Shown one piece after another: positions 17,193 to 55,690 of a stretch of 64,000 nt of DNA. The notes beneath the pieces are model-generated. The model made no database searches. It was not told where the DNA came from and worked only from the letters and a program-made list of their open reading frames with translations. Origin of the DNA: Paracyclopina nana (taxonomy: Eukaryota > Arthropoda > Copepoda > Cyclopoida > Cyclopettidae); contig JAGUCH010000006.1 in assembly GCA_019096065.1 (NCBI GenBank), positions 826,001 through 890,000 on the forward strand. Direction: 5' to 3'. Both the position numbers and the translations under genes were made by a program. Position 1 is the first letter of the stretch, and each line of letters begins with the position of its first letter.

Positions 17193-18694
17193 GTGAAAAT
17201 GAATGTACTTGTGCTGATTTTCAATCAGGTCAAAACTCTCTCAGTGGAGCCTTTGTCTTTTATGCTCATCTTGAGTGGCTGGATAGTGAGTGGCTCCCAA
17301 CTGGATACCAGTTTATTGATTCACAAAATCTGCAACTTGGAGCTGAATTACTCTTCTGACATCTGCTCAAATTTAACTGCAGAAGAAAATGAAGAATACT
17401 ACTACATTGTAAAGGAAAGGGTGGCCTACATACAACAAATATCACTTTATTTGGGGGCTATTCCACCCATAATATACTGCTTGATTGCTGGAGCTCTATC
17501 TGATGACTTTGGCAGCAAACCTTTGGTGGTTTTTCCACTCATTGGCAATGTATTGAAGGACAGTTTGATGCTGGTTTTTGCTCTATTCGTTGACACTTTA
17601 CCTCTGGAGTTCTTTTATTTGGACAAGACCAATGTGTTGTTTGGAGCCTATCCCATTTATTACTTGGGAGCTTATGGCCTCATAGCTGAAATTTCCAAAG
17701 TTGAAGACCGGTCCTACAGATTAGTCAGAAATGATGGATTTGAGAGAGTTGCAAACATAGTGGGAGGTTTGCTATCTCCACTAATTTTCAACTCCCTTGG
17801 TATAATCTACAATTATGCAATCAGACTGGGGATTTCTGCTGTGGCTGTTGTTTATGCTATATTCATACTAAAAGGTCCTACCAGGGAAAAACGCAAGGAT
17901 GGCATAGACATGAACAAATGCCAAAAGTACTTCCTTAAGCCTCTGACTGAGATGTTTTCAACAATATTCAAGAAAAGAGAAGATTACAAAAGGATCCTCA
18001 TTTTGCTTCAACTTTTCACTTATGGCCTCTATGTCTTGAGGCTTCATGATGATATCCTTTACCTATACTTCTTGACTGTTTTCAAGGATTTGGGATTTGA
18101 TGAGACGCAAATGGCTTATGTGGTGACTTTCATCAGTGCCTTGAATACCTTTGGCTTCTTTTTCATCGTTCCAATCTTCACCAATTACTTGAAACTTCAT
18201 GACACCGTTGTGCAAATCATCATAGCCATCACAGATATAATTTCTTTGTCACTGTACCCCTTTGCTAAGCAATATTGGCAGCTTTACTTGATCCTCAGCA
18301 TAGCAGTCATAGGCAGATGCAAATATTCCATCACCAGATCTTTGCTCAGCAAAACTTTGGAGCCTAATGAAATTGGCAAAGGATTTGGTGGTGTTGCCAT
18401 TGTGGCTGCCATTATGCCCTTCTTCAATGCATCCTTGTACCAGGGCCTATTCAGGCAAACTGAGGAAACTTTTCCGCACTCTGTAGTCATGGTTAACATT
18501 TCATGCATGGTATTGGCTCTGTTTCTGAATATTATCTTCTTTTGGAGGAGAAAAACAATGACTCGTCAACCAGAGGAAGAAAAGCCCACAAGTGCAGCAG
18601 GCTTTGAATGTAAGTCTATTCCATTCATGCAATTCCTAATGCAAACTTTCTCTTTTTTGCAGTTTATGCTCAGTACTTGAAGACAGAGCTGTAG
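17193..18694 (+). CDS. SLC46-like major facilitator transporter (proton-coupled folate transporter family)
   Basis: Exons 17193-18609 and 18663-18694 (53-nt intron, donor GAAT/GTAAGT, acceptor TTTTTTGCAG) give about 482 aa ending YAQYLKTEL. Features of the family: an N-terminal VEPLSFMLILSG helix, an extracellular loop with N-glycosylation sites (NYSSDICSNLT), then a second helix followed by LIAGALSDDFGSKPLVVFPLIGN, which matches the conserved loop 2-3 motif of SLC46 (G-x-x-S-D-x-x-G-R/S-K). About 11-12 hydrophobic segments are present. Without the last splice the frame reads through the intron to a slightly different end. The start is uncertain: a good acceptor (TTTCAATCAG) lies just before VKTLSVEP, so the first codons may come from an upstream exon. 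Known: SLC46 proteins move folates or cyclic dinucleotides with protons. The substrate here is unknown. Confidence 0.85.
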
Positions 18695-21760: not shown

Positions 21761-22025
21761 CATAAAATGTATTGAAATAGCACCTGAATACATAAAAATA
21801 GCTGCTAATTAAATACATTTTATATACTGTAATACGATTTCCTCGTGTTATAATTCAGTTTACCGATCCGACTCAGCTCTTTTATATCACAGTTCTTTCT
21901 AAGCAATTTGGGGGATATTAAATACTTAACGGCCCTGGAATCGAATTCGAGGGATTTTAAGTAGTTTAATGCCCCTCATATTCCATGGAACTAATCAACA
22001 TTCCAAAGAAGTTAGAAAAAGAGAG

Positions 22026-22239
22026 AATCATCCAAGATTTGAACCTCAGCCAGTTGGATCAACATTTCAATACTCTAACCACTGAGTTATGGAAGCACCA
22101 TAAAAATTGTATGCTATGTATAGGACTTAAACATAATTTAAGCCAGAAAAGAAACCAAAAAAATCAAGGAATGACTGGGGTTTGAACCCTAGGCAGCGGA
22201 ATCAAGAGCCAAGCGCTCTAACCACTATGCCATAGGTGC
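22026..22239 (-). pseudogene. pair of tRNA-like sequences in repeat copy 1
   Basis: On the minus strand, about 22026-22099 and 22169-22239 each show a D-arm/A-box-like segment (CAGTGGTTAGAG, TAGTGGTTAGAGCG) and a T-arm/B-box (GGTTCAAATC, GGTTCAAACCC) at tRNA spacing. Acceptor stems do not pair and the anticodon arms are degenerate, so these are tRNA-derived (SINE head or pseudogene) rather than working tRNA genes. Confidence 0.6.
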
Positions 22240-22421
22240 AACTCACAAGAAATGTATTTTTAAAGTCTGTTTCATTGCTCTCAAACCACTGGATGCTAGC
22301 TGATGAGAGCCAGTGATACATAGCATAAAAACCAAGCAGCATTTTCTAGGGCACGGGGCAGCCTGGTAACTTCATTAAAACACTCGAAAATTGTATTACA
22401 GTATATAAAATTGTATATTTT

Positions 22422-22596
22422 GAGCTGGGGCACGTAAAGTAGGGTCATTAAATAGCTGACCTCAGATTTTAAAATGGAAAAACACTCGTACAATTACAGC
22501 CCTCGCAGGCTCGGGCTAGTAAAGCTGTACTCGAGTTTTCCCATTTTAAAATCCTCGCTCAGCTATTTAATGACCCTACTTTACGTGCCCCAGCTC
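22422..22596. repeat. long hairpin in repeat copy 1
   Basis: Left arm from gagctggggcacgtaaagta, right arm ending tactttacgtgccccagctc. About 60 bp per arm, nearly perfect. The loop contains a second, shorter inverted repeat (acagccctcgcaggctcggg region). Confidence 0.85.
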
Positions 22597-22612
22597 GAAA
22601 TAAATAACTATT

Positions 22613-22772
22613 ATGTAATAAGCTATTAAGATACATTTTATGTTATGAGCTGTTTAAATATAAATACATAATATGTTATGACCTATTTGAATACATTTTA
22701 TGTTATGAGCTGTTTAAATATAAATACATAATATGTTATGAGCTATTTGAATACATTTTATGTTGTGATCTA
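22613..22772. repeat. AT-rich short tandem repeat (ttatgttatgagct type)
   Basis: Irregular tandem copies of a ~25-30-bp unit containing tacattttatgttatgagct, alternating with taaatacataatatgttatg. A related array follows copy 2 at 23573-23690. Confidence 0.75.
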
Positions 22773-22980
22773 TTTTATATACTGTAATACGATTTCCTCG
22801 TGTTATAATTCAGTTTACCGATCCGACTCAGCTCTTTTATATCACAGTTCTTTCTAAGCAATTTGGGGGATATTAAATACTTAACAGCCCTTGAATCAAA
22901 TTTGAGGGATTTTAAGTAATTTAATGCCCCTCATATTCCATGGAAGTAATGCAAATTCCAAAGAAGTTGGAAAAAAGAGA

Positions 22981-23198
22981 GGATCATCTAGATTCGAACC
23001 TCAGACAGTTGGATTAGCATCCCAATGCTCTAACCACTGAGCTATGGAAACATCATGATAATTGCATGCTATGTATAGGACTTTAACCATAAATTTAGCC
23101 AGATAAAGAAAAAAAGTTAGTTGAGGAATGACTGGGGTTTGAACCCTAGACTCCTGAATCAAGAGCCTAGCGCTCTAACCATTGTGCCATAGGAACAC
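22981..23198 (-). pseudogene. pair of tRNA-like sequences in repeat copy 2
   Basis: On the minus strand, 22981-23054 has a perfect D-stem (GCTC/GAGC) and a 5-bp anticodon stem (TTGGG/TCCAA, one G-U) around a 7-nt loop with GCT in the anticodon position, plus the B-box GGTTCGAATC. The acceptor and T stems pair poorly. About 23126-23198 has GGTTCAAACCC and ATGGTTAGAGCG. The homologues of copy 1 and the nearby hairpin suggest SINE-like DNA. Confidence 0.6.
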
Positions 23199-23384
23199 AT
23201 CTGAAGAAATGGATTTTGAAAGTCTATTTAATTGCTCCCAACCCACTGGATGCTAGCTAATGAGAGCCAGTGATATTCACATAGCAACTAAAAACCGAGC
23301 AGTATTTTCTAGGGCACGGGGCAGCCCGGTAACTTCATTAAAACACTCAAAAATCGTATTACAGAATATAAAATTGTATATTCC

Positions 23385-23559
23385 GAGCTGGGGCACGTAA
23401 AATTGGGTCATTAAATAGCTGACCTCGGATTTAAAAATGGAAAAACACTCGTACAATTACAGCCCTCGCAGGCTCGGGCTAGTAAAGCTGTACTCGAGTT
23501 TTCCCATTTTAAAATCCTCGCTCAGCTATTTAATGACCCTACTTTACGTGCCCCAGCTC
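23385..23559. repeat. long hairpin in repeat copy 2
   Basis: Same inverted repeat as at 22422-22596, with a few arm mismatches. Confidence 0.85.
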
Positions 23560-23572
23560 GAAATAAATAACT

Positions 23573-23690
23573 ATAAATACATTTTATGTTATGAGCTATT
23601 TGAATACATTTTATTTTATGAGCTATCTAAATACATTTTATGTTATGAGCTATCTAATTACATTTTATGTTATGAGTTGTTTAAATATGC
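23573..23690. repeat. AT-rich short tandem repeat after copy 2
   Basis: Four or five copies of a ~26-bp unit containing acattttatgttatgagct. Same family as 22613-22772. Confidence 0.75.
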
Positions 23691-25796
23691 GTGCCAATGC
23701 AAATAATGCGAAAGACTAAGCCAAATGCAAAGCCTTAATGTGTCACAACAACGTTAGCATTGCGTGCAGCAATTGTCGCTCTTAAGAGGACATTAGCATA
23801 AATTCTAAGCCAATTACTGTTTGCATTATTGCCTTTCGTTTGGCATCTCCATGATGTGCAAGATGAAAAGATTCATGCTTAGGCATTTATCGACCGAGGC
23901 TTCCATAAAAACCTCGGATAAAACCATTTCCGCATAAGAAAAAGGGGATCATTTGCATGTGTGGATAAGACTCTTCATTTTCTACCTCTTATTTTTTGGA
24001 TGCGCATTGCATCTTTCCACCACCTTTAATACCGCGTAAAACCCAAGGCCGAAATTCGATCACGGCAGAAGTCAAATCCACTTTGCGTTTAAGCAAGAAC
24101 ACGCATCAGCTCAAGCCAAAACATGGCGAAGATGAGGAGGCCCAGCTTTTAATATGATCCCATAATCTTATTTGCCTATAGAGTACTATGAAAATAGCAA
24201 CGCGCGCGAGACTTTGAACGTTGCTCACTCCGTCATCATCATCATCATCTTTATGGTGGTGTCGCATGATCTTCCCTGGTCGTTTCCGCGAGCCCAGCTT
24301 ACAATGTACTATATAAGTGATAATTATGGGCAGTTAGGCTCTTTGTTTAAGCGCCGAACAAGATGAATGGATCCTTCATTTTTCATGAAAAAGGAGGTGT
24401 GTGAGTGAATTGGGGGGAATCATGCAGACATCTCCCCACAGGGTCATGCAAAATGCAATTTCTCCAATACGACCTATTATAAACGATATCTTGTAAGAAT
24501 TCCAAAAAATTCATTATGCTTGCAACAATAGATGGATTTTTTTACAGTAACTATACAGCCTCGCATTTCAATTAGTGGTGTGTAAACCAACAGTCTTCCA
24601 GTGAGCTGTACTTGCATAATTACCAGTTCCTTTTTCGATGATATTAGGAAGACCCCGTGCGCTTACGCGGAATATTTATCCCGTAGCATTTTGATGTAGT
24701 CACGGCTTCAAAAAAGATATCTTCGCCGCGACCCAGGGGTGTCATAAGATCCCTATTCGATGATCTTTTAAATATGCAACTTTCAATCACGAGCCTCGTA
24801 ACGATAAAAAAGCAGTGTAGTGAAGAAGCCAAGAATTCTTTTAAAAGTGGGCAGAAGATTTTACTCTCATCATTAATAAGGATACAACAGTTAATAAGTC
24901 TGCTATTAAGGCTACTTTATCATGTGGGAATTGCTCTCGCTCCATCATAAGTTACGAGCCCAGCTTGGCACATTATCTTTATCATGCCATTTTTGTCTTC
25001 TTGTACGACTACGAGATCGTCTTCGTGCGCTATATTCCAATTTTGGGATCCCCTACTGAGTATACCAGCAACTACCTCTTTAAGGCTTTCAGCACTCATT
25101 TTAATAATAAATGGGTAGGATCCTTAAACTTGTCGTTTTTTCTAGGCTATAGATTTTAAAAGGCTCAAAAGGAGTACTAGTACGCTAAAAGGTATCATTT
25201 ACGGTAATAACTGCCTATTTAGCAACAAAAGGTTAAGTCCACATGGCCCAAAATGTATGGGATCACCTGTTGGTTTTTGAGGTCCTGAGCTAATGTCGTC
25301 TTCGTAAAACCTGTGGCAACGCAAAGTGTGGTATTCAGATTTTATGCTAAACGTCTAATATGATAACTGCACATTGTCATTCATGTTGAATTACAGTTCC
25401 TCAGCTTCAGAGACATGGATCGTATTTTGCTCGTCAATTTCACGAAGTTGTGCGTTTTTCAATTTTTTGTGCGCGCGCATGCAAAAATGGGCTAATATTT
25501 GAGCTCGCATTTTACACACTTTTCGCCTGAAAATTGAGAGGTTCGAGTGCGAGTTACGTTCGCTTTTTGCAAATGCGGCACTTCTTCTCGTGTATATATA
25601 CGAATAGTATAATTTGTTTTCCTACAATAATAGTTGTCCAAATATGGCTGCCAATTACACACAAGCCTGGTTTGAGCACATGCAATGATCCACATGCACA
25701 TGAAAATTGAATAAACACAAGAAGATCGAGGAACGACATCGGATCACGGAAGAAGATATCTCTCAGGATTTCTGAATAAATATAATAATATATGGG
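23691..25796. other. gene-free stretch
   Basis: AT-rich DNA with an (atc)n run near 24231-24250 and poly-T tracts. No supportable gene. The BEL/Pao element begins directly to its right. Confidence 0.5.
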
Positions 25797-25801
25797 TGGA
25801 T

Positions 25802-26015
25802 TGTAAACATGATCACTGTAATCTCGAATCGATGAACTGATAAAAATAAACGTCGCACGAATAAAAGAGCACTCTAAAGGGATCTTTTGGTCAGATCGTT
25901 TATTTTGACGACCGCCATGCATAAAATCCGAAAAAGTACTAAAGTAAACAAAACATAAGGGATCGAAAGTGAGTCCAGCCAGATAGAGTCACAAAACCTC
26001 GCCGGGAGGCAAACA
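25802..26015 (-). repeat. 3' LTR of the BEL/Pao element
   Basis: 214 bp, identical to the 5' LTR, and preceded in element sense by the purine run AGAGGGGA. Confidence 0.95.
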
Positions 26016-26016
26016 G

Positions 26017-26024
26017 TCCCCTCT
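26017..26024 (-). promoter_or_regulatory. polypurine tract
   Basis: Element sense AGAGGGGA, one base before the 3' LTR, which is the expected position of the plus-strand primer. Confidence 0.75.
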
Positions 26025-26048
26025 GGGAGTCTATCGGGTGGACTGAGG

Positions 26049-29036
26049 CTACTCGTAGCGATGCAAAGGCTTGTTGATGCCATTACGGTGAATCACTAAA
26101 ATTCTTCCTTCACGATCCATTTGACGTACAGCCATGACATGAGCAAAAGCGGCAACGCGCTCATTAGCAAAAAGCTGCACCAAGTCAGTGTCACGGTGAT
26201 GACCCTCGTTGTGACCTCTCCCGCCGCAAGCAGTGCAGATCTCCAGAACTTGAGGGCACACCTTGGCCGAGTGGCCTTCGCGGCCGCAAAATGGCAAGGG
26301 GCAGGAGGGCAATTCCAAGCACTCGGTCGAATCATGATCAAAGTTACCGCAGATAACACAGGCATGCGGGTACTTTGAAATGCGCCTGTTCTTCAAGGCC
26401 GTCGTCGTAAGTCTGCCAATCGCCCCATCCATAACAGCTGATCTGTGAAGGTCAACCAAGGACACTTCCAGATCACCCTCGAGGCGTTGAATGGCTGAGT
26501 TCGACAGGTGCCAAAACGTGTTTCTGGACACAGGCCATAGGAGCTCCAAGGCCTTGAGCCTCTTCCAAATTTGCTCCCTAGAGTTGAACAGCCTCGACTC
26601 TGCCCTGAACATCTGCAAGGGCAACGATGGCTCGCCCAGCATGCCTTCGTACTCGACCCTAGGCTGGGTGCCAAACTTGAGGGGGATGTCAACGTACAGG
26701 GCCAGCAAGGCTAACGCATACGGGAACATGTTGTCACTGTCCGTCAGATTTTCGTACTCAGCGATGACATAAGCGGCCTTGAAAAGGCCGGCTAAGGGGG
26801 CAAACTGGTCGATCCGGTCATAGTAGAGGGTGGACTTCGAATATTCGTCCACGAAGCCAGCATAGGGATCTTCCCTCGCCCACTTTGGGAATCGCACTGA
26901 ATGCTGTACTCGCAAGAGCCTCAGCATTTCTTCTTTGCCAACATTGGCGGCCGGGTCCAGCAACTTGATGATGTGGCCCACGTCCACCCATGCTCGCACT
27001 GTGACACCCATCAGGCGGAACCGTTTGAGATCGCCATCGATGCCAAAGCCAAGCTTGAAAACTCTCGTGGACTCCAACAATGCCACGATCCTGGACGGCA
27101 ACTTCCTGCCAATGAATTTTGGCCCGACAAAACCCACTCTGGTGCCAAAAGCAATACCATTTGGGGCGCCCATGTGCACGTAGGAGGTCATGTTGTTGAA
27201 CTCGTCCACTGTGGGCGGGTACTTCTTCGCGTAGGCAACTTTGGTGGAGTGGTGAAAGCCTTCGCAATCAACAGTCATGACCCTGCTCCTTTCAATGGAC
27301 TCGAAAAAGCCCTCTGCCTCTAGGAAATGCTCTAGCTCCTCAAAGCTATTCGATGTGAACGCATTTTCCTTCTTCGTGAGGCCGTAGATGTACACCGACC
27401 TCAATTCTGGCGACTCTAAGTCGTAGCACGAGCCTCTCGCCATCGCTGCTCTCTTCTTTGCTTCTTTGATCGACACAACTGTTGCCACAGCCATTGATTT
27501 GTCCCAAGTCTCGGCCAACTCAAACTCTCGTCGTATTGCGCACGCGACATGATGGCATCGCCTGGCCTGCTCGGCCTTCATGTCGTAAACTTTTCCTGCA
27601 ACTAACTCTGGGCAGTCAAATTTTACATTATATTTACGGAGATACTCCTCGTCGTCGTCCATTGGTGTGGCCGAAGTTCTCAGCCCTGACAAGTCTTTCA
27701 TCTGCGATCCGCGGAAGTCTGCCATGATCTCATCCTCCATCCCCGCTGGGATGACTATGGGAGCCCTCTGACTCGCTGGCGGCCGCACTGGACTTTGCTG
27801 CTCCGTCTGAGTAGATGCCGAAGTTTTCTCCACCTCCGCCATCTCCATGGGCTCGTCCTCTTCAATGACAACTCGCCTCCCAGGGCTCAATGCCGGCTTG
27901 ACCTCATCAGGAGCGAGACAACCAAGGTCTCGCTCCTTCAAGGCTTCACCTAGAGCTCCAAACCTGGCGGTGCTGTCCCTGGCCTCTTCGACGACTTGGC
28001 AGCCTCGGTGATGAACTACCCTGATCGAACACCTGAACGGAGGCCCGTTGATGGCCTCCAACGTGTCCTTGAGGGCCTTGACAAACTGATCATTGTGCTC
28101 TCTAGTTACGATTGGCAGTTTCTTGAAAACAGAGAGCTGCTCCATTTCTTCGATCGTCAAGACCGTCCTCATCTGGTCGATCATGGTGATATCCGCCACG
28201 TCTCCTTCACGATAAATTTTGTACATCTTGGGGGCGACATGCATTCCTAAACCAGCTTCCATTGCTTGGAGGACGCCTTTTTCCCATGTTGCATCGTCAA
28301 TCGTTCCTGCAATGTAGTTTCCCAACGCCCTTGCTGCCATCCAGCTCCTCACCATGGTGAATTTGTCCGGTAGCTCCTCAAGCTCCGGGTCCTTGTTCTC
28401 GGTGTGCAGCCTTAAAATGTCTAAGAATTGATTACCGTATGCAAACATGTAGGTTTCCAGCAGCGACATCCCTCTGGATCGGCACAGGAGTGCCCTGTAG
28501 GCCCTCCATAAGTCCATTCGTCGATGTTTTCTTCTTTTGTCCGCGGGCCGATCGTCACCCGGCATCTTGTCTCCCCAATTGTATTGGTCGCCGATGATTA
28601 AGGCTTCAGGGTCTTTTGCCGTCACAAAGAATGCCTCCCTGCGGCTCACGTCGTTGTTTGTGTACCAGTGGAGCCTTGTGAAGCCCGTGACTCGCATAAC
28701 TTCGGCGGCCGTGTCCGTTTGTCGCTCAGATGTGAAGGCCGCCGCTCCATGGTCCGGTCTTCGGTCGCTGGGTTCTTCTCCCGTGTTGGCAATGGTGATG
28801 CGCAGCTCTTCTTTGATTCCGGGGGGCCCTTGAGTCCCCGAGCAACCAGGGCTCGGAGATCTTGACGGGGGCGTGATCCTCGGTCTTTTTCGTTCGCTGC
28901 CTTCTTTTTCCGCCATTTTGCACCGATTTTCACTGTTGTGTTTTGACGAAAAAACTGGCGCGCGCGGGTTTTTTCTCTTCTCTGCTGAGCGGGAACTCAG
29001 CCGATCGTCACTGCTGTGTGCAGCGTTACCAGACAT
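26049..29036 (-). CDS. retrotransposon ORF2: DEDD exonuclease-like region plus CCHC zinc knuckles
   Basis: A 995-aa uninterrupted frame, ATG at 29036, in the env position of the BEL/Pao element. It ends 33 bp before the 3' LTR. There is no signal peptide or membrane segment, so it is not env-like. Residues 1-100 are polar, with basic stretches. The middle is unrecognised. Residues ~560-770 resemble a 3'-5' exonuclease of the RNase D/WRN class: motif I VDCEG (Asp590, Glu592), then KLGFGIDGDLKRF (Asp667, Asp669), like the K-x-G-x-G-I-x-G-D strand of WRN-type exonucleases. The third motif, expected as YxxxD, reads near FKAAYVIAEY without a clear Asp, so catalysis is doubtful. The C-terminus (~885-955) has CCHC knuckles (CVICGNFDHDSTEC, CGREGHSAKVC, CTACGGRGH). 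Inference: a nucleic-acid-binding, possibly exonuclease-derived accessory protein. A capsid-like second Gag is the alternative. Confidence 0.85.
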   Translation of the reverse strand: MSGNAAHSSDDRLSSRSAEKRKNPRAPVFSSKHNSENRCKMAEKEGSERKRPRITPPSRSPSPGCSGTQGPPGIKEELRITIANTGEEPSDRRPDHGAAAFTSERQTDTAAEVMRVTGFTRLHWYTNNDVSRREAFFVTAKDPEALIIGDQYNWGDKMPGDDRPADKRRKHRRMDLWRAYRALLCRSRGMSLLETYMFAYGNQFLDILRLHTENKDPELEELPDKFTMVRSWMAARALGNYIAGTIDDATWEKGVLQAMEAGLGMHVAPKMYKIYREGDVADITMIDQMRTVLTIEEMEQLSVFKKLPIVTREHNDQFVKALKDTLEAINGPPFRCSIRVVHHRGCQVVEEARDSTARFGALGEALKERDLGCLAPDEVKPALSPGRRVVIEEDEPMEMAEVEKTSASTQTEQQSPVRPPASQRAPIVIPAGMEDEIMADFRGSQMKDLSGLRTSATPMDDDEEYLRKYNVKFDCPELVAGKVYDMKAEQARRCHHVACAIRREFELAETWDKSMAVATVVSIKEAKKRAAMARGSCYDLESPELRSVYIYGLTKKENAFTSNSFEELEHFLEAEGFFESIERSRVMTVDCEGFHHSTKVAYAKKYPPTVDEFNNMTSYVHMGAPNGIAFGTRVGFVGPKFIGRKLPSRIVALLESTRVFKLGFGIDGDLKRFRLMGVTVRAWVDVGHIIKLLDPAANVGKEEMLRLLRVQHSVRFPKWAREDPYAGFVDEYSKSTLYYDRIDQFAPLAGLFKAAYVIAEYENLTDSDNMFPYALALLALYVDIPLKFGTQPRVEYEGMLGEPSLPLQMFRAESRLFNSREQIWKRLKALELLWPVSRNTFWHLSNSAIQRLEGDLEVSLVDLHRSAVMDGAIGRLTTTALKNRRISKYPHACVICGNFDHDSTECLELPSCPLPFCGREGHSAKVCPQVLEICTACGGRGHNEGHHRDTDLVQLFANERVAAFAHVMAVRQMDREGRILVIHRNGINKPLHRYE
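27909..27937 (-). promoter_or_regulatory. hairpin C with CTTGGTT loop (in ORF2)
   Basis: Element sense: an 11-bp perfect stem (AGGAGCGAGAC/GTCTCGCTCCT) around CTTGGTT. It encodes part of RDLGCLA. The outer stem differs from A and B, yet is fully self-complementary. Confidence 0.6.
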
Positions 29037-29077
29037 TTTCTTGTTGACTAGATTTGTGGTGTGATTGTTTGTAGCTC

Positions 29078-29096
29078 TTTTTTTTTTTTTTTTTTT
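29078..29096 (-). other. 19-nt A-tract (element sense) between pol and ORF2
   Basis: In element sense an uninterrupted run of 19 A lies 41 nt after the pol stop and 42 nt before the ORF2 ATG. It falls in an overlapping third-frame ORF (29048-29284) that reads KKKKKK there. It may bear on how ORF2 is expressed, or be a slippage-prone tract only. Confidence 0.8.
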
Positions 29097-29136
29097 CGAA
29101 GTGTTTCTTGACGAGTTTCGTGCACTAAGTCTTCTT

Positions 29137-32100
29137 CTATTTCAACTGAATATGCGGGAACTCTGCAATAGGGACAATGTCCCTGATGCTCCGTTCGAAG
29201 ACACTTTTTCTTTGCTGCACTACCACTCGTCTCACTAGTCCATCGACACTTCTTTTCACTTTTAAAACTTTCGCTACTCTCCACTTGAATCGTTTGACTT
29301 TGAGGTCTTCTTCGGCCACCACAACCAAATCTCCCTCTCTCAGCACTTTACTGAACTTGGTTCTAAACTTGCATCTGTCATGCATGTTTTGCATAAAATA
29401 TTCACACCAGCTCTTCTCGAACTTTGCCATTCTTTGCGCCAATTCATGCACATTGTAGTCTAGTTCATGGTCCGTTGAGTAGATGCCTGTGTCTCCCAAC
29501 CTCCCAACTAAAAGGTGGTTGGGTGTTAAAACCATAATTTCGTCATCATCTTGTCGAATCACAGCTACTGGTCTTGAGTTGACTACATTCTCTGCCTGAG
29601 CCACCCAAGTTCTATAAATTTCGAGGTCCACTTCTCCTCGATCATTATGGTCTTGAATTGCCTTCTTGGCTAGCTTCACAAATGCTTCCACTTGGCCATT
29701 TGCCTCGTGATCTCTTGGCGGTGATGTGATCCATTTTCTGATGAACTTTGTCGTTCTTAGCTTCACCGCATTCCAGTCCACTTGCTCTACTTCGTGTTGC
29801 AGATCTTGTGGCTTGGCCTGATTCTTCTCGAGCAGTCTCTTGGCCATTTTGAAGCTGCCCCCATTATCTGAGTAGGCCTCTTCAATTGGTCCTCTCCTCG
29901 CAGCCATCCTTGTGAGTGCCAGAATTAAGTCTTCTGTATTCATTCCCATGGTGATCTCCAGTGTTACTACTTTTGTGACTAGACATACTGCGACCAGCAC
30001 ATATACTGGGATTCTCTTTCTTCTAAATTTCACCCACTGTGCTCCTGTGTAATCCAGAGCAACTTTTGCGCACGGCCTCAGGTTCTTCAATCCGACTTCT
30101 GTGATGCCACCCATCAGCTGCCTTGGCATGGGAGAATGATTTCTCACACACCTGCTGCATTCTTTTGAGACCTGATAAGCTATTTTCTTAACTCCAGGCC
30201 CAGAGACGTCTTGTAAAAGTCTATGCCATAAGTTGTCGTACCTGATGTGGTTTTCTGCTTCATGTATTCCCCACACGTACAGCGTGAAAGGCCACGTGTC
30301 TGCGAGTAGGATTGGGTTGATTTGTGATCCCTTCAGGTCCTGTTTGTACAGTCTGGTGCAAACTCTCACCAAACCGTCCCCACTGACCATCAGCGCTTGT
30401 TTTCCTTGCATTGACATGGGCCACTTTCCTGTTTTTTCGTACTGCAAAATTTCTTTCTCCCATTTCTTCCATTGTCCGAATATCAGCACTCTTGTTGTTA
30501 TCACGGCCATTATGTCCTCGGGGATGATGTCTTCATATCTTGCTCCCCTGCTCTTCCCCAGGATCCTTGCCAGTGCTCTGATCATGATCGCCCATCTGCC
30601 TGCCATTTGCAGGCTCATCACGTTCTTCATTTGTTGATACGTCCTGTAACTCCGGTTGACTGCGCTTTGTCCTGCTTCTTGAACATCGTGGGGCTGAATC
30701 ATGGCCAACTGATTGACCACTACCGTGCTAGGACAACCAAGGTCCTCGCACATAAGTGTTATCTCACCTGACCCCAAGAGCTCTTCTTCGATCACTTTGA
30801 TGTCAGTCATGGTCCACTGGTCTTGATTCTTTTTGAAGAATTCTGGTCCTTCCCAGTAGTTTTTATGGTCTTTGAGTTGATCCCCATTGCAGCCTCTAGT
30901 GGGAAGGTCAGCCGAGTTCTCAGCTGTGGCTATGTGGTTCCAATGCTCCATCAGCGTCGTGTCCGCGATCTCTATGACTCTATTTCTCACAAACACACAC
31001 CTTTCCACTCCTGGCTTTCTAATCCAATAGATGACTGGTTTGTTGTCTACCCAGTACCACACGTTCTCTCTCTTGATCCCAAAGAGTCGTATTAGTCTGT
31101 TTGACAACCTGGAGCTGAGCAATGCACCCGCCAATTCAACTTCGGGTATTGATCTCTGTCTGACACCCTGGATTCTAGCTTTAGTGGTTAGCCACCTTGG
31201 TTGTGGCTCTCCTCTTTGGCTTAGGTAGGCCACTGTTGCAAATGCTAAGTCTGACCCGTCACTACACATATGCAAAATTGTGTTCTCATCAATGCTACTG
31301 GCTGCTTGCCTTGGGTAGCTGACTTCTGACATTTGGCTGAATTCGTTTTGCCACTGTTTCCAGAGCTTCACTGCTTCTCTGGCATTCTTGTCGTCCACCT
31401 TGGCTAAGTCTTCATCCCACGTGATCTTTTTGTTTTTGTCGGCCTTATGTGCCAGCTGAAGTGCTTTTCTGGCTTTTAACAAGCACGGTGCCAAGGCTCC
31501 CAAGGGGTCGAACACAGCCGGGATTTGGCTTGCCATGATTCGTTTCGTCACTATGCCTTGGTTGTGTTTTGACAGCTGGTACCCAATTCGATCAGTCACC
31601 GGGTCCCACTTGAGTCCCAACGTTGAATGGATTCGTTCTTCGACATTTTCTTCCACTACCATGGACTTTCCTCTTCTTTCGACTGGCACTCCTTCCAACA
31701 CCTCCTTATCATTCGACACGAATTTTCGCAGTTCCATGCCAATTTCGCTCATCAGTGGTACGAGTTCTTCAATGACCTTTTTTGCGGTCTCTTTGGCCTT
31801 AAAGGCCACGATCACATCGTCCATGTATATCTTAACTGAGTCTTGCAGGAGCTGAGAGCCTCTGGCCTTGATGTGTGATTTCACCACGAAGTTTGCCACC
31901 GAGGGGGCCGCTCTTAAGCCAAAAGGCCACCTGCAAAACTGGTACTGTTGCCCGTTGATCAAGATCCTGACATACCTCCTGTCCTTTTCTGGCAGCGCGA
32001 TCATCAAATACATCTTCTCTATGTCCGCCACGACTGCTGTGTTTCCCACTCGAAATTGCAGCATTGTATCGAAGATGTCCTCCAGGTAATTGGGTCCAGT

Positions 32101-35100
32101 GTACATTTGCTCGTTGATCGACGTCCCATTGAACTTCTGTTTCGCGTTGTACACGAACCTATACTTCGTCGTCTTGCTAGTGTGCCTGGCTACGCAGAAA
32201 ACCGGGAGAAAGTAACCTTTGCCGAGCTCATGCCTTGGGACTGGTTCGATGATGCCCAAATCTAGATATTCCTTGAATGTTGATCCAATTGCTGCCATGA
32301 CTCCTTCATCTGCTTCATGCTTCTTGTCCAGGCTTCTCTGGATCGCTGCGCATTGTGCAAAGTTGTCAGGCAAGTCCGGAATGTCCTTGATGAATGGGAT
32401 TGCCACCTCCACGTGTCCTGAGGGGAGAAGTCTCATCGATGCTTTCATTTTGATGAGCGCTATCTCTTCTGCCAGGTTGAGGCGCTGAATTGGTTCTTCC
32501 TTTCGATCAATGCCTATTGACTCAAGCCCATACTGTCTGTCAAGGACGTACCTGAACTCGGACTCTGTCATTGCTGATTGATTGAACAACTTCCAATCAT
32601 CGACAAAAAGTGTAGTGTCGTTTCCACTTATCCCTGGGTAGTTGAGAATTGACCACCCCAGCGGCGTTTTTCTTGCTAGTGGTCCGTCCTTCACCACAAT
32701 ATCTTTTTCGCTGCTCATGAGCACGGTGTTGTTGAATCCAACCAAGAGACCCACTCCACCCTGCTCTGGGACTGGAAACTCGATCTTTTTCAGTTCTTCA
32801 TGACTTGCTTTAACTTCATTTGGGTCGACAGGCTTAATTGAGACAGGTAGTTCAAAAGTGTTAAACTTGAGCTCGTACACTTGACCTTCTCCGCTCTTTG
32901 CTCTTATGTATATTTTTCCTTCTTGAGATGGCTGCGTGATTGACTTGTCTCCCACGACTTGGACTGTCAGTTGCTTTCTCTTCCCTTTGAATCCCAACTG
33001 CTTAGCTAGGCTCGGTTTGAGTAAAGTGGCACTTGACCCTGCGTCAATGAGCGCGTTCGTTGTCACTGATTTTTCGAATGTAATATCTCCAGCAATCTCT
33101 ACTGGGACCGTGAGCCAAGATCTTGTAGCTTGGGCTGCGAGCAGAATCACATCCTCTGTTTGATCTCCTTTGTCAGGACAACCAAGGTCCTGACTCAAGA
33201 GTGTAGTTTCTGACAGCTTTGTCATGAGCTTGGTCATCGAGGCGAGCAGCTCCTTCACATCTTCTTTTTCCTCCCCGCTTTTCTTGGTCTCCTCTTGCTT
33301 CGGCTTCTGCCTGTGGATCTTCGTATGGTGGCTTGATGATCCGCAGACGTCACAGCTCAGCTGCCTTTTGCAATCGCTGAGCTTGTGTTTCCCTTGGAGA
33401 CATCTGGGGCAGATCTTAGCATCGTCTATGACCTTAATAATGTCTTGCAACTTGAACAAGTTCCACTGTGGGCACTCGCAGCACCTGTGGCCTGGTTTTT
33501 TGCACAAGAGGCACACCGTCTTTCCACTTACAAAGTTCACGCATTCTTCATCCTGATCTTGGTAGCCAAAATCATACCAGTTTGCTTCCTGGTCATCGCA
33601 GTGGGCAACCGCTTCGCCTTCATATCCTCGGTAGTCATAGTCTCGATCCCATAACTCTTCTTGGTCATATGGGTCGTCATATCTTGATGGGTAGGCTGCT
33701 TCCCAAGCAAAATACGATTGTTCTCTTCTGGCTCCATAAAATGGTCTTCTGGCTCTACTTCTGAAGCCTCCACCTCTGTAGCCTCTGGTTGGCTGTGGAG
33801 GTTCGCCTGGCTGCGGCTGAGGAACATATCCATATGCTTGACCTGATAGTCGTTGATGGTTTCTATCATGCATCTTGTTGATGTCTTCCACCACGGTGCA
33901 AACTTTTCTGTTCCTCTGGATTTCCCTGATTCTTGTCCTTGACCAAGTTATGAACAGCCTTAGAGAGTTTCGCGATTGCATTTTTTGCTCCTTGAACCTC
34001 TCGTAATCTCTCCTGGCCCCGACCTCAAATTGGATGTTGCTCAAGATGGATTGCTCTCCGTCTAGCGCGTCCTTTCCTGCTCGTCCATTGCAGTCGATAA
34101 TTTCCTCGACTAACGCCAGTGTGGCCTCCAATGTTGCCAAGCTCCTCATGCTGATCGGCACCATCTTGATCAGTTGTGCTGAAAGGTCGTGCACCATCTC
34201 GTCAGCTTCTCCTGGGTGTCCCAAGTATGTTCCATCCAAGTTTTCCAGCGCACTTACCAGGCCTTCAAAGTCCAGTGTACACCTTCTCACTGCGAACTTT
34301 GCTCCTCCTGTGCACAAGTATTTGAGCTCTGAAATCTTCTCAAACCAGCTCAAGTTCTTCTTCATAATGATTGCTGCATGGACGTATTCTTTGAAATCCT
34401 TGTATGCACCCGTGTTTGCTCCATCAAAGAACATCGGCTTGACATCCTCTCTGGAGTTCGAGTCTTTTGGCAGGTTTGGGTCGTAGAATCTATGGAGGTT
34501 TCTCCTTTGCATGATGTCTGCCCAGCAAACATCCGTGGTTTTTCTCCTCCTGACTTGCTCGATCACTGTGTGTTGATCCAGGAACTCCTCTTCTTTGGCC
34601 AGTTTTTCTTTGTACTTTTCTTCTGTGAGGTGGACTGCTGGGACTCCCAGCTGGAGCATCTTCGACTCGCCCTCCCCCTTTGGAGTCCGATCACAGCTTC
34701 GTACTTCCTCGCTCATGGTTGGTGGGGTTGTCTCCGTCTGTCCCCTCGTTTCAGTGGGGAATGTCGAAATGATGTTTTCAGCCTCTTTGTTTCCTATGAC
34801 TATGCACTGTCGGTTGATGGGGAAGTCCTCGCTGTCTGGCATTGCCATCAGTTGCTCGCTGACTTCCAATCTTCTTTTGTTGACTGTCTTCATCATGTTG
34901 ACCTGCTGTGCTGCTTCCAAGGACCCCGCTCTGAGCTTTCTGAGCTCCCTGTCGGCGCTTTTTAATTGAGCAACTAGCGAAAAGAACTCACCGTTCAATG
35001 CGATGGCTTGGTCCACCTCTGATTCCTCGTCGTCGCTCGGTGCTTCAGTTGACTGTTGTTTCTTGTCCTTGACCTCGAGTTTGGCTGTGGAGGCAGAGGC

Positions 35101-35790
35101 AACTAAAGCCTCCGCCTCCGTTGAGACTCCCATGACCATGATGTTTCTTGCTTTTGTGCTGGCTTTCATTACCAGCCCCACAAGCTTTTGGTTCATAGCT
35201 CTCATCTCCACTCCAAACTCATCTCTGTCTCCCTGGCCCACGAGAGACTCCAGCACCACCGCGTCGCTCTTCAGGGCTTCAATAAGGTTGCTGAACCCGT
35301 TGCGGACGCATTCCACCGCGCCTGCCTTATTTGCGGCTTGGAGACTTTCCTCTAATTTTGCAATGTCACTTTCAATACTCGCCTTGGTCTTGGCCCAGGT
35401 TTCCTTCCAAGGAGCCACGCCTGCTGCTCCTAATTCCATCGCTGTCATCATGTGAACACAATTTGTTCCGTCGCTGAAAAGTGTTGAGTCACTGTATCTC
35501 AGGTCCAATTCTGTACCTGCCGTGTCCAGTATGCTCGCACTTGCACCTTCGACTGTGTCCGGATGTCCAGCTAGACAAACTGACTTTTCACTCGAAAGTC
35601 TGGCCTTGAAGTCAGCTATTCGCTTATTGACTTCTTCCTGCCGAGCACTGTCTATGTCTTGCGCTTGGTCTGCCAGAGTTGATACGGTTCTTGCTTCCCT
35701 TATTTCATGCTCGTACTCTCCTGACGTGAGCCTCACATTTCTAATCGGGTTATGTCTAAGGCCATATCTCTTTGTAATGTCTTTGGACAT
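29137..35790 (-). CDS. BEL/Pao Gag-Pol polyprotein
   Basis: An uninterrupted 2217-aa frame from ATG at 35790. Order of parts: an N-terminal region with coiled-coil-like segments; a DUF1759 (Gag-like) region near residue 450-600 (KPMFFDGANTGAYKDF); three CCHC/CCHH knuckles near 750-830 (CLLCKKPGHRCCEC, CPRCLQGKHKLSDC, CDVCGSSSHHTKIH); an aspartic protease with IDAGSS, catalytic Asp916; reverse transcriptase with YMDD at about 1322-1325; an RNase H region beginning near 1510 (CSDGSD); an H2C2 zinc region and integrase core with Asp ~1913 (LDYTGA), Asp ~1973 (YSDNGG) and Glu ~2035 (NGQVEAF); and a DUF5641-like tail (LREGDLVVV). All catalytic residues are present. Two copies of a DLGCP peptide sit in linkers before the protease and before the integrase. 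It makes the capsid and the enzymes for reverse transcription and integration. Confidence 0.96.
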   Translation of the reverse strand: MSKDITKRYGLRHNPIRNVRLTSGEYEHEIREARTVSTLADQAQDIDSARQEEVNKRIADFKARLSSEKSVCLAGHPDTVEGASASILDTAGTELDLRYSDSTLFSDGTNCVHMMTAMELGAAGVAPWKETWAKTKASIESDIAKLEESLQAANKAGAVECVRNGFSNLIEALKSDAVVLESLVGQGDRDEFGVEMRAMNQKLVGLVMKASTKARNIMVMGVSTEAEALVASASTAKLEVKDKKQQSTEAPSDDEESEVDQAIALNGEFFSLVAQLKSADRELRKLRAGSLEAAQQVNMMKTVNKRRLEVSEQLMAMPDSEDFPINRQCIVIGNKEAENIISTFPTETRGQTETTPPTMSEEVRSCDRTPKGEGESKMLQLGVPAVHLTEEKYKEKLAKEEEFLDQHTVIEQVRRRKTTDVCWADIMQRRNLHRFYDPNLPKDSNSREDVKPMFFDGANTGAYKDFKEYVHAAIIMKKNLSWFEKISELKYLCTGGAKFAVRRCTLDFEGLVSALENLDGTYLGHPGEADEMVHDLSAQLIKMVPISMRSLATLEATLALVEEIIDCNGRAGKDALDGEQSILSNIQFEVGARRDYERFKEQKMQSRNSLRLFITWSRTRIREIQRNRKVCTVVEDINKMHDRNHQRLSGQAYGYVPQPQPGEPPQPTRGYRGGGFRSRARRPFYGARREQSYFAWEAAYPSRYDDPYDQEELWDRDYDYRGYEGEAVAHCDDQEANWYDFGYQDQDEECVNFVSGKTVCLLCKKPGHRCCECPQWNLFKLQDIIKVIDDAKICPRCLQGKHKLSDCKRQLSCDVCGSSSHHTKIHRQKPKQEETKKSGEEKEDVKELLASMTKLMTKLSETTLLSQDLGCPDKGDQTEDVILLAAQATRSWLTVPVEIAGDITFEKSVTTNALIDAGSSATLLKPSLAKQLGFKGKRKQLTVQVVGDKSITQPSQEGKIYIRAKSGEGQVYELKFNTFELPVSIKPVDPNEVKASHEELKKIEFPVPEQGGVGLLVGFNNTVLMSSEKDIVVKDGPLARKTPLGWSILNYPGISGNDTTLFVDDWKLFNQSAMTESEFRYVLDRQYGLESIGIDRKEEPIQRLNLAEEIALIKMKASMRLLPSGHVEVAIPFIKDIPDLPDNFAQCAAIQRSLDKKHEADEGVMAAIGSTFKEYLDLGIIEPVPRHELGKGYFLPVFCVARHTSKTTKYRFVYNAKQKFNGTSINEQMYTGPNYLEDIFDTMLQFRVGNTAVVADIEKMYLMIALPEKDRRYVRILINGQQYQFCRWPFGLRAAPSVANFVVKSHIKARGSQLLQDSVKIYMDDVIVAFKAKETAKKVIEELVPLMSEIGMELRKFVSNDKEVLEGVPVERRGKSMVVEENVEERIHSTLGLKWDPVTDRIGYQLSKHNQGIVTKRIMASQIPAVFDPLGALAPCLLKARKALQLAHKADKNKKITWDEDLAKVDDKNAREAVKLWKQWQNEFSQMSEVSYPRQAASSIDENTILHMCSDGSDLAFATVAYLSQRGEPQPRWLTTKARIQGVRQRSIPEVELAGALLSSRLSNRLIRLFGIKRENVWYWVDNKPVIYWIRKPGVERCVFVRNRVIEIADTTLMEHWNHIATAENSADLPTRGCNGDQLKDHKNYWEGPEFFKKNQDQWTMTDIKVIEEELLGSGEITLMCEDLGCPSTVVVNQLAMIQPHDVQEAGQSAVNRSYRTYQQMKNVMSLQMAGRWAIMIRALARILGKSRGARYEDIIPEDIMAVITTRVLIFGQWKKWEKEILQYEKTGKWPMSMQGKQALMVSGDGLVRVCTRLYKQDLKGSQINPILLADTWPFTLYVWGIHEAENHIRYDNLWHRLLQDVSGPGVKKIAYQVSKECSRCVRNHSPMPRQLMGGITEVGLKNLRPCAKVALDYTGAQWVKFRRKRIPVYVLVAVCLVTKVVTLEITMGMNTEDLILALTRMAARRGPIEEAYSDNGGSFKMAKRLLEKNQAKPQDLQHEVEQVDWNAVKLRTTKFIRKWITSPPRDHEANGQVEAFVKLAKKAIQDHNDRGEVDLEIYRTWVAQAENVVNSRPVAVIRQDDDEIMVLTPNHLLVGRLGDTGIYSTDHELDYNVHELAQRMAKFEKSWCEYFMQNMHDRCKFRTKFSKVLREGDLVVVAEEDLKVKRFKWRVAKVLKVKRSVDGLVRRVVVQQRKSVFERSIRDIVPIAEFPHIQLK
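30725..30751 (-). promoter_or_regulatory. hairpin B with CTTGGTT loop (in pol, before integrase)
   Basis: Element sense: stem GTGCGAGGAC/GTCCTAGCAC (10 bp with one mismatch) around CTTGGTT. It encodes part of EDLGCPS. Confidence 0.6.
33172..33194 (-). promoter_or_regulatory. hairpin A with CTTGGTT loop (in pol, before protease)
   Basis: Element sense: an 8-bp perfect stem (GTCAGGAC/GTCCTGAC) around the 7-nt loop CTTGGTT. It encodes part of QDLGCPD. Shares the loop with hairpins B and C. Confidence 0.6.
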
Positions 35791-35935
35791 CCGCTTCAAT
35801 GTCCCCTCGTTTGCGTTTCGTGGGACAAGCTTGTCCCCCCGTTCGCAAACTCCTTCAGCTCGTCAGCGTCAGCTGACTCCGATGGCCGCCGGCTCTCGAT
35901 AAGCTTGACACTCTTGATCACTCACGGTGTGGATC

Positions 35936-35953
35936 TGATAACGTTGGTCGCCA
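35936..35953 (-). promoter_or_regulatory. primer-binding site
   Basis: Directly adjoining the 5' LTR, element sense TGGCGACCAACGTTATCA. The leading TGG complements a tRNA CCA end, and TGGCGACC would match a tRNA 3' end ...GGTCGCCA. The particular tRNA was not determined. Confidence 0.75.
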
Positions 35954-36167
35954 TGTAAACATGATCACTGTAATCTCGAATCGATGAACTGATAAAAATA
36001 AACGTCGCACGAATAAAAGAGCACTCTAAAGGGATCTTTTGGTCAGATCGTTTATTTTGACGACCGCCATGCATAAAATCCGAAAAAGTACTAAAGTAAA
36101 CAAAACATAAGGGATCGAAAGTGAGTCCAGCCAGATAGAGTCACAAAACCTCGCCGGGAGGCAAACA
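35954..36167 (-). repeat. 5' LTR of the BEL/Pao element
   Basis: 214 bp, identical base for base (by my reading) to 25802-26015. In element sense it begins TGTTTGCCTC and ends ATGTTTACA. It should contain the promoter and transcription start. An AATAAA-like signal is not obvious in element sense. Confidence 0.95.
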
Positions 36168-53500: not shown

Positions 53501-55690
53501 ATGGATCACAAGGCTGACAGGGAGGCTGAAATGGACGAGCTGGTGGAATTGGCCAAAATATATGGCGTACCTAAAGAAAAAAATCCTCAAAAGCTTCACC
53601 AAATCTGGACAGATATTTCCAAAGAGTTTTGTAAAAGAACTGGTCAATCAATTTGTGGCAGAAAACTCTCCAGGAAATATAGTTACAGGTAGAACTATCA
53701 GTTTTGACACAAATTAAAAGATGTTTCGTAAAATTGGCCCCTTTTTTGATTGGCACTTAACCAATTTTTTCAAACGTGAAGTCATAGTAAATGGACTTCT
53801 CATTTTTTACAAATGTAAAGCAATTGTTAATGGACTTTTCAGGAAAAAGATGCTAAAATCAAAAAGGACGAGAGTAAAAGCTGCTGAGGTGGCAACTGGA
53901 GGTGGACCCAGATCAAAGGTTCAAATGACTATCCATGAGCTGCAACAACTATGTGACATGGGTGAGGGTGACCTGTCTTTTGCCACACAATGGGATTCAG
54001 ATGCCATGCTTGGAGTTCCAGGACCTTCAACTGCATCTCAGAAAATTGTTGCAGGAAAAAAGGCTGAAAAAAGGCCTAGACAAAGAGATGTAAGCGAGAT
54101 TATGACAATATATGAAAGTCAATTTTTAGTTCTAAATATTCTAAATTGCAGGATGCAAATGAGTATGATGGCATTCCTGATTTTAGTAGCTCTGAAGGCA
54201 GCGATGAGGAGATTGTGCAAGAGAATGCTACCACTGTGACGATCATCAAAAAGAGGAAGAAGGAGATCAATTCAGGTAAAAGAATGGCTGAAATGTAGGT
54301 AAGAAAACAGTAAATTTACAGGTCTAGTATTTGATGAAAAACTATAAAAAAAAATTTCGTTGCTTTGATCATCCTTCTTAATAAGTATGGGCCTATGATG
54401 CTCACTAGACTTAGTAAAGCTAATAATTTCTTAAACCATTGAAACAAACAGTTAAAGAAGTTAAAATATAAACTGAGTGCCTGCTTATGCAATTCAGTTT
54501 AATTTAAATCACCTTCAAATTCCCCTGTGATAGATACAACAATAATTTTTGATAAAATATTTTTTAGGAGCTTCACGGTCCCATCTTCGTTTGACGAAAA
54601 AAATCCAGTTGTAAACAAACTTGAACAATGTACTAAGATAATGCCAGCCGCTGATCTCATACTATTTCAAAAGTTAACCAAAACAAAAAGTAAGTGAGCC
54701 TTTCTTGTTTCAGCCACTTTGACTCCAGCCTCTTCTCTGCCATGCACTCCGGCCGCTACTCCGGCCGCTACTCTGGCCGCTACTCCGGCCGCTACTCCGG
54801 CTGCTACTCCGGCACCTGCTCCGGCCGCTACTCCGGCCGCTACTCCGGCACCTGCTCCGGCCGCTACTCCGGCCGCTACTCCGGCCGCTACTCCGGCCGC
54901 TACTACAGCCGCTACTACAGCTGCTACTCCGGCCCTAACTCCGACACTTGCTCCGGCCGCTACTCCGGCCGCTACTCCAGCCGCTACTCCGGCCGCTACT
55001 CCGGCCGCTACTCCGGCCGCAACTCCGGCCGCTACTGCGGCACTTGCTCCGGCCGCTACTCTGGCACTTGCTCCAGCCGCTACTCCGGCCGCTACTCCGA
55101 CCGCTACTCCGGCACCTGCTCTGGACCCAACTCCTGCAACTACTACTGCCACTGCTACCACGGAGGAAATGTCCAGGGCCAGGGTTGTTCCCCTTCGGAC
55201 CAAAATTAGGACAGCAGAAGTCATGCGTGAGGAGTCCGTAAATGATTATTTGATGAGAAAATCAAGGTATGAGGAAGAGCAAAGCCAAGCTGAGCATCGT
55301 ATGCGAATCAAGATCTTAACTGCCGAGTTGGAAGAGGCTTGTTTCAGACGAGACTTGAAAAAACAAGAGCTGGAAAATAATGCAAGGAAAAATGATCGAG
55401 AGGAGCAACTTTTTCAATTGAGGCTTGAGCAGGAGAAAAAAATGTTTGCAATGAGGATGGGAAGTAGCTTTGTTGCAAGCTCAAGGAGTGGGAGAAGTGA
55501 AAGGAGTGACAACATTTCTCGTAGTGGAAGCTCTGCTTCAATTCGGAGATTGGACTCAGCAATCTTATCAGACATCAATTTTTATAATGGTATTTACTGC
55601 TTATCTTTTATTTAAAAGGACATTTCATGCATTTTTTATTTAGGTGCGATCTCTGATGAAGTGTTTGACAGCAATGCCAGCCAGATTTAA
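53501..55690 (+). CDS. Harbinger accessory DNA-binding (Myb/SANT-like) protein
   Basis: Five exons: 53501-53688, 53843-54089, 54152-54275, 54714-55589 and 55644-55690. All have GT-AG borders and the frame is kept throughout, giving 493 aa. The N-terminal ~60 residues (DELVELAKIYGV...QIWTDISKEFCKRTGQSICGRKLSRKY) look like a Myb/SANT or MADF-type trihelix with the W-x-x-I-S spacing. Then come a linker and an acidic patch (SSSEGSDEE). A ~130-residue Thr-Pro-Ala repeat region follows (TPAATPAAT). The C-terminal ~150 residues are charged and helical (EEEQSQAEHRMRIKILTAEL, LEQEKKMFAMR), a probable coiled coil. Known: PIF/Harbinger elements encode such a protein to bring the transposase to the nucleus and the element ends. 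The start is chosen at the only ATG before the trihelix. Confidence 0.8.
54740..55140 (+). repeat. Pro-Ala-Thr coding minisatellite (ctccggccgcta)
   Basis: About 30 copies of the 12-bp unit actccggccgct, with variants (gcacctgctccg, ctacagccg), all in frame within exon 4 of the Harbinger accessory gene. The unit length is a multiple of three, so the array can vary in length without breaking the frame. All three plus-strand frames and at least one minus-strand frame are open across it; only TPAATPA fits the gene. Confidence 0.9.

Follow-up and report, generated by a model that had tools for sequence, protein, structure and literature searches.

A BEL/Pao retrotransposon of Paracyclopina nana with a separate gene after pol for a zinc-knuckle protein with a putative DEDDy exonuclease-like domain

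Introduction

What kind of protein does a BEL/Pao retrotransposon encode between pol and its 3' LTR if that protein is not an env? The question is raised by a locus of the copepod Paracyclopina nana, within the window analyzed here (the whole stretch of DNA, 64 kb long). There an earlier note placed a 995-aa open reading frame, ORF2, in a BEL/Pao element and described it as an accessory protein with RNase D-type exonuclease motifs and C-terminal zinc knuckles. We consider below the integrity of the element, the nature of ORF2 as a gene, its likeness to DEDDy exonucleases, and the alternatives to that likeness.

Results

An intact BEL/Pao element

The element is a BEL/Pao retrotransposon of intact structure and recent insertion (Table 1). 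Its two LTRs show no mismatch between them and the target-site duplication is 5 bp long, indicating that the insertion is both recent and complete. Along the minus strand, the 5' LTR and a primer-binding-site-like stretch are followed by ORF1, a gap of 100 nt, ORF2, and 33 nt that hold a purine-rich tract and separate the ORF2 stop codon from the 3' LTR. ORF1 starts with TTG, its first ATG being codon 4, and encodes a gag with three zinc knuckles, an aspartic protease, a reverse transcriptase (RT) with YMDD at residue 1325, a Pao peptidase/RNase H region, an integrase, and DUF5641. Pfam matches include Peptidase_A17 (PF05380, E = 7.5e-26) and RVT_1 (PF00078, E = 8e-10), and the matches to protease, RT, RNase H, integrase and DUF5641 start in that order at residues 899, 1244, 1418, 1922 and 2121. 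The integrase match (rve) scores 20.6 bits, under the Pfam cut-off of 32.6, and the DUF1759 match to gag is weak (E = 0.11) and below the Pfam cut-off; against a profile of gags from 69 BEL relatives, the gag of ORF1 gives an hhalign E of 2.1e-11. The BEL/Pao identity proposed in the earlier note is thus borne out by the Pao-type domains and their order, the LTRs, the target-site duplication and the BEL-type gag.

Table 1. Features of the retrotransposon and of its two open reading frames (positions in the window)
Feature	Positions	Strand	Basis
Complete BEL/Pao LTR retrotransposon	25802..36167	-	identical LTRs, target-site duplication ATCCA on both flanks, Pao domains
5' LTR, 214 nt, TG...CA	35954..36167	-	
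Primer-binding-site-like stretch starting TGG, TGGCGACC..., immediately inside 5' LTR	35936..35953	-	sequence
ORF1 gag-pol, 2,220 aa	29137..35799	-	
19-nt A run between pol stop and ORF2 ATG	29078..29096	-	
ORF2 accessory protein, 995 aa	26049..29036	-	
Putative DEDDy exonuclease-like domain, ORF2 residues about 576-745 (profile match 576-720)	26802..27311	-	
Motif I VMTVDCEG, D590 and E592	27258..27281	-	
Motif II KLGFGIDGDLKRF, D667 and D669	27018..27056	-	
VDV, D685, aligned to IDT of RNase D	26979..26987	-	
Candidate motif III YDRID, Y739-x3-D743	26808..26822	-	sequence; tail test no better than shuffles
Three tandem zinc knuckles, ORF2 residues 893-947	26196..26360	-	
3' LTR, 214 nt	25802..26015	-	

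The rest of the window contains no further copy of the element. It does contain a unit of roughly 955 nt in two tandem copies that include short direct and inverted AT-rich repeats (21817-23700), a 381-aa open frame with a DDE_Tnp_4 transposase domain (56057-57202, minus strand) that is presumably Harbinger-type, a 495-aa MFS_1 transporter frame without a stop (17193-18680, plus strand), and a low-complexity repeat (54667-55615) that is open in several frames and reads as Thr/Pro/Ala repeats in one plus-strand frame.

A search of the protein collection with the RT region of ORF1 found 514 proteins. Of these, the 120 listed matches, with and without env, are 27-33% identical to it, arthropods being the commonest of the named sources, so the element belongs to a divergent BEL/Pao lineage with no close relative in that list. 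In a tree of ORF1 and 119 of the 120 listed relatives, from which protein P0002 was left out by a span filter, the nearest neighbor of the element is protein P0003, with support of 0.94 and a long branch. The matches of P0002 to ORF1 resemble a double pol. No pol relatives were found in the viral contig collection. Precomputed Pfam annotation places PF12259, which we take to be the baculovirus F/env-type domain, in the polyprotein of 18 of the 120 listed relatives. It also places PF00240, presumably the ubiquitin domain, in two BEL polyproteins (P0005 and P0012), where it may be an annotation fusion.

ORF2 as a gene

The coordinates given earlier for ORF2 are exact; the strand, not stated then, is minus. 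ORF2 lies in sense with pol, does not overlap it and has its own ATG. Its length is far beyond chance, as open frames reached 237 codons at most among 300 mononucleotide shuffles of that stretch. In codon usage, the ORF2 frame (0.42) and a shifted frame (0.47) could not be told apart. The run of A upstream of ORF2 is the sole run of 14 or more A or T in the window; as guesses, it may be the scar of a template switch at an mRNA tail or an aid to internal initiation.

The protein consists of a charged, Ser/Pro-rich N-terminus that, judged by eye, is probably disordered, a region without assignment, the exonuclease-like part, and the C-terminal knuckles. Nothing meaningful matched it in Pfam, NCBIfam or PHROGs, and PDB sequences gave chance-level matches only, nucleocapsid knuckles among them. 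Two protein-collection searches, one of them limited to scoring the 7,998 candidates with the most words in common, found no homologues. As the same collection yielded the 514 RT-region proteins, it does hold BEL proteins, but no near kin of the element among the matches listed. Relatives of ORF2 were likewise absent from the viral and genome contig collections (viruses and prokaryotes), tblastn of the exonuclease-like domain in phages gave one chance-level match (E = 6), and the 120 listed BEL relatives gave four weak matches to ORF2, with E between 0.018 and 0.98 and each of them in the area of the knuckles.

CCHC knuckles had been claimed at the end of ORF2, and three are found there, starting at residues 893, 912 and 934 and being of the types CCHC, CCHC with x4 spacing, and CCHH. 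They align with BEL gag knuckles (hhalign E = 2.8e-4) and with those of the element's own gag (pairwise blastp E = 0.011). Since the other ORF2 segments tried gave no gag match and the knuckle spacing differs, the resemblance was treated as generic and duplication of gag was rejected as the source of ORF2.

The exonuclease-like domain

Two profiles were compared with ORF2. One combined Escherichia coli RNase D with ten hand-picked DEDDy domains (11 sequences); the other added eight phage and plasmid domains, all but two of which were labelled Pol A or DNA polymerase (19 sequences). The enlargement came after a marginal first result, the eight rows being hand-picked for diversity when their effect had not yet been seen.

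The 11-sequence profile gave a weak hhalign match to ORF2 residues 530-830 (P = 0.023, score 22.4) that placed motifs I and II in register. Of 600 shuffles, 2 scored at least as high, as did 2 of 600 real BEL segments, in no case across 100 or more columns. Run in the reverse direction, the same comparison missed the motifs (score 14.4, with 82 of 300 shuffles as high). HMMER with --max ranked the ORF2 domain behind about 68 of 5,000 shuffles, and a crude, home-made global PSSM alignment was null, 31 of 60 shuffles doing as well as the domain. The profile does reach animal DEDDy proteins, as its HMMER matches in the PDB include a MUT-7 homologue (1.5e-18), EXD2 (6.2e-15), WRN (4.3e-13), Egalitarian (1.1e-12) and EXD1 (2e-4). 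Against 52 bits for WRN, 51 for Egalitarian and 24 for EXD1, ORF2 scores -0.3, and is thus very divergent.

With the 19-sequence profile, the match to ORF2 530-830 covered residues 576-720 over 124 columns (hhalign Prob 70, E = 3.9e-5, score 37.2), and none of 500 shuffles (maximum 25.6) or 500 real BEL segments (maximum 20.3) reached this score. Full-length ORF2 was matched over the same residues (E = 1.7e-4). A segment with motif II and no motif I (residues 641-940) scored 27.3, and the reversed domain, seven ORF1 segments and four ORF2 segments without motif II all scored 17.2 or less. That gag alone was recognized by the BEL gag profile indicates that single sequences are fair input for hhalign. 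A single-sequence AlphaFold2 model had a mean pLDDT of 32.8 and was set aside.

In the 19-sequence alignment, residues of ORF2 pair with those of E. coli RNase D as follows: D590/E592 with D28/E30, D669 with D85, D685 with the Asp of IDT, and W719 with the DW. Two of the motifs proposed earlier are found as described: VDCEG runs from residue 589 with its Asp and Glu in profile register, and KLGFGIDGDLKRF runs from residue 661 with both of its Asp residues, the latter of them pairing with D85. The further statement that motif III lacks an obvious Asp calls for a correction. A YxxxD of the DEDDy form is present at Y739-DRI-D743, at a place that would suit a DEDDy motif III and 20 residues beyond the aligned Trp, compared with 12 in RNase D, but the profile does not place it on motif III and the stretch alone fails to beat shuffles (56 of 300 score equally high). 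A motif-pattern count (2 of 20,000 shuffles) is not counted as evidence, as the pattern was composed after the motifs were known.

The exonuclease-like reading of the earlier note is borne out only in part: the 19-sequence DEDDy profile matches ORF2, while the curated family PF01612 gives no Pfam match even at E = 10. By the curated-family test ORF2 would be a remote DEDDy relative at most. Given the profile match, the middle part of ORF2 is likely homologous to DEDDy exonucleases, and a DEDDy fold for this domain is highly probable.

Discussion

This intact BEL/Pao element carries a separate gene after pol. Its product, on the reading that we consider probable, joins a divergent DEDDy exonuclease-like domain to three zinc knuckles and would serve in trimming 3' ends. 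Zinc knuckles together with an exonuclease-type fold suggest a protein that acts on the ends of nucleic acids. Under this scenario, the knuckles would hold the RNA or cDNA of the element, and, as the element replicates, the DEDDy domain may trim, tidy or protect 3' ends, be they those of RNA tails or of cDNA. That ORF2 has the job of processing 3' ends of the element's own nucleic acid is offered tentatively, its chance falling somewhat short of even. Catalysis is graded as plausible only, about evenly balanced, since the candidate motif III did no better than shuffles.

The closest competitor to a working enzyme is a DEDD fold that has lost catalysis and serves in nucleic-acid binding alone, as in EXD1 and Maelstrom of the piRNA pathway. 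We doubt this reading but take it seriously, as motif III is without statistical support and by profile the ORF2 domain is more divergent than EXD1. However, catalytically dead DEDD relatives tend to lose metal ligands, and ORF2 retains D590, E592 and D669 in register, with a YxxxD downstream. Both EXD1 and Maelstrom are named as inactive DEDD derivatives in a passage of PMC5408684. That the exonuclease likeness arose by chance in an unrelated, novel nucleic-acid-binding protein appears unlikely: the empty family searches and the weak or null reverse-direction, HMMER and PSSM runs would fit it, but no control among the 1,000 comes within 11 score units of the 19-sequence profile match, in which the motifs are in register.

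A fragment of a host gene carried as a passenger, of no function for the element, is quite improbable. It would account for the scarcity of matches among the 120 listed BEL relatives, all of them near the knuckles, and the A run upstream could be the scar of its capture by template switch. Yet the frame is intact across 995 codons and fits precisely into the interval from pol to the 3' LTR, and neither protein-collection search found a similar host protein, so a recent capture would require an unsampled gene. The position after pol is also that of an env, and a diverged env would explain it; this is scarcely credible, as the knuckles are of the nucleic-acid-binding kind, ORF2 has no match to the PF12259 found in other BEL polyproteins, and hydropathy shows no transmembrane segment (Kyte-Doolittle means over 19 residues peak at 1.44, at residue 770, and the six top windows all lie outside the N-terminus). 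With no anchor in the hydropathy profile and no env domain in Pfam, env identity was ruled out, in agreement with the earlier claim of a non-env protein lacking a membrane anchor. The element thus differs from BEL/Pao elements with an env-type domain, to which it is related by pol.

The preferred reading, a DEDDy exonuclease-like accessory protein, has precedents. A passage of PMC6338049 counts the DnaQ-like exonuclease among the accessory domains known in LTR transposons. A DEDDy-type ORF3 was described in 2017 in the Juno and Vesta LTR elements of bdelloid rotifers (Rodriguez, Kenefick, Arkhipova; PMC5408684), and that paper reports that it was acquired at least twice and is shared with Athena elements. 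As described there, Juno and Vesta resemble the present element in carrying an extra RNase D-like DEDDy ORF without a transmembrane domain beside gag and pol, and most have near-identical LTRs; a Cys-His-Cys motif is noted in Vesta2 and Vesta5 ORFs (PMC5408684). However, they belong to clades other than BEL/Pao, ORF2 is likened to their ORF3 by description only, ORF2 has three zinc knuckles, and the DEDDy homology that PMC5408684 calls strong in ORF3 is at the edge of detection in ORF2.

Other systems share some of these traits. Some Dada elements have a DEDDy exonuclease domain and a C-terminal CCHC motif, but Dada is a DNA transposon, and its DEDDy domain, known from elements of two species, forms part of the transposase (PMC3706591). 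Terminons, or Athena Penelope-like elements, are retroelements with DEDDy accessory ORFs, but are giant telomeric elements with a Penelope-like RT (PMC6431247). RNase D of Trypanosoma brucei is a DEDD-type exonuclease whose PDB entries 7c42/7c45 are named CCHC-type domain-containing protein, but it is a cellular enzyme that trims guide RNAs (PMC7797062).

A narrow test of open-licence PMC papers found no record of a BEL/Pao element with an exonuclease. The novelty claimed earlier for the accessory protein therefore stands for BEL/Pao within that test, but not for LTR elements as a whole, given Juno and Vesta; the ORF2 element is rather a new example in another LTR branch than a new principle. 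A bolder proposal, which we hold to be improbable, is that a BEL/Pao lineage independently gained an active DEDDy exonuclease with nucleocapsid-like knuckles that acts on the 3' ends of host small RNAs or element RNA and lets the element escape piRNA-type silencing, as a transposon-borne counterpart of Nibbler/MUT-7/EXD1.

Should the family be borne out, it would provide an LTR lineage besides Juno and Vesta with a DEDDy accessory ORF. Repeated gain of such domains, if true, would argue for a recurrent advantage to retrotransposons, and two roles could then be put to the test: 3'-end processing as a limit on retrotransposition, and such proteins as a counter to small-RNA silencing.
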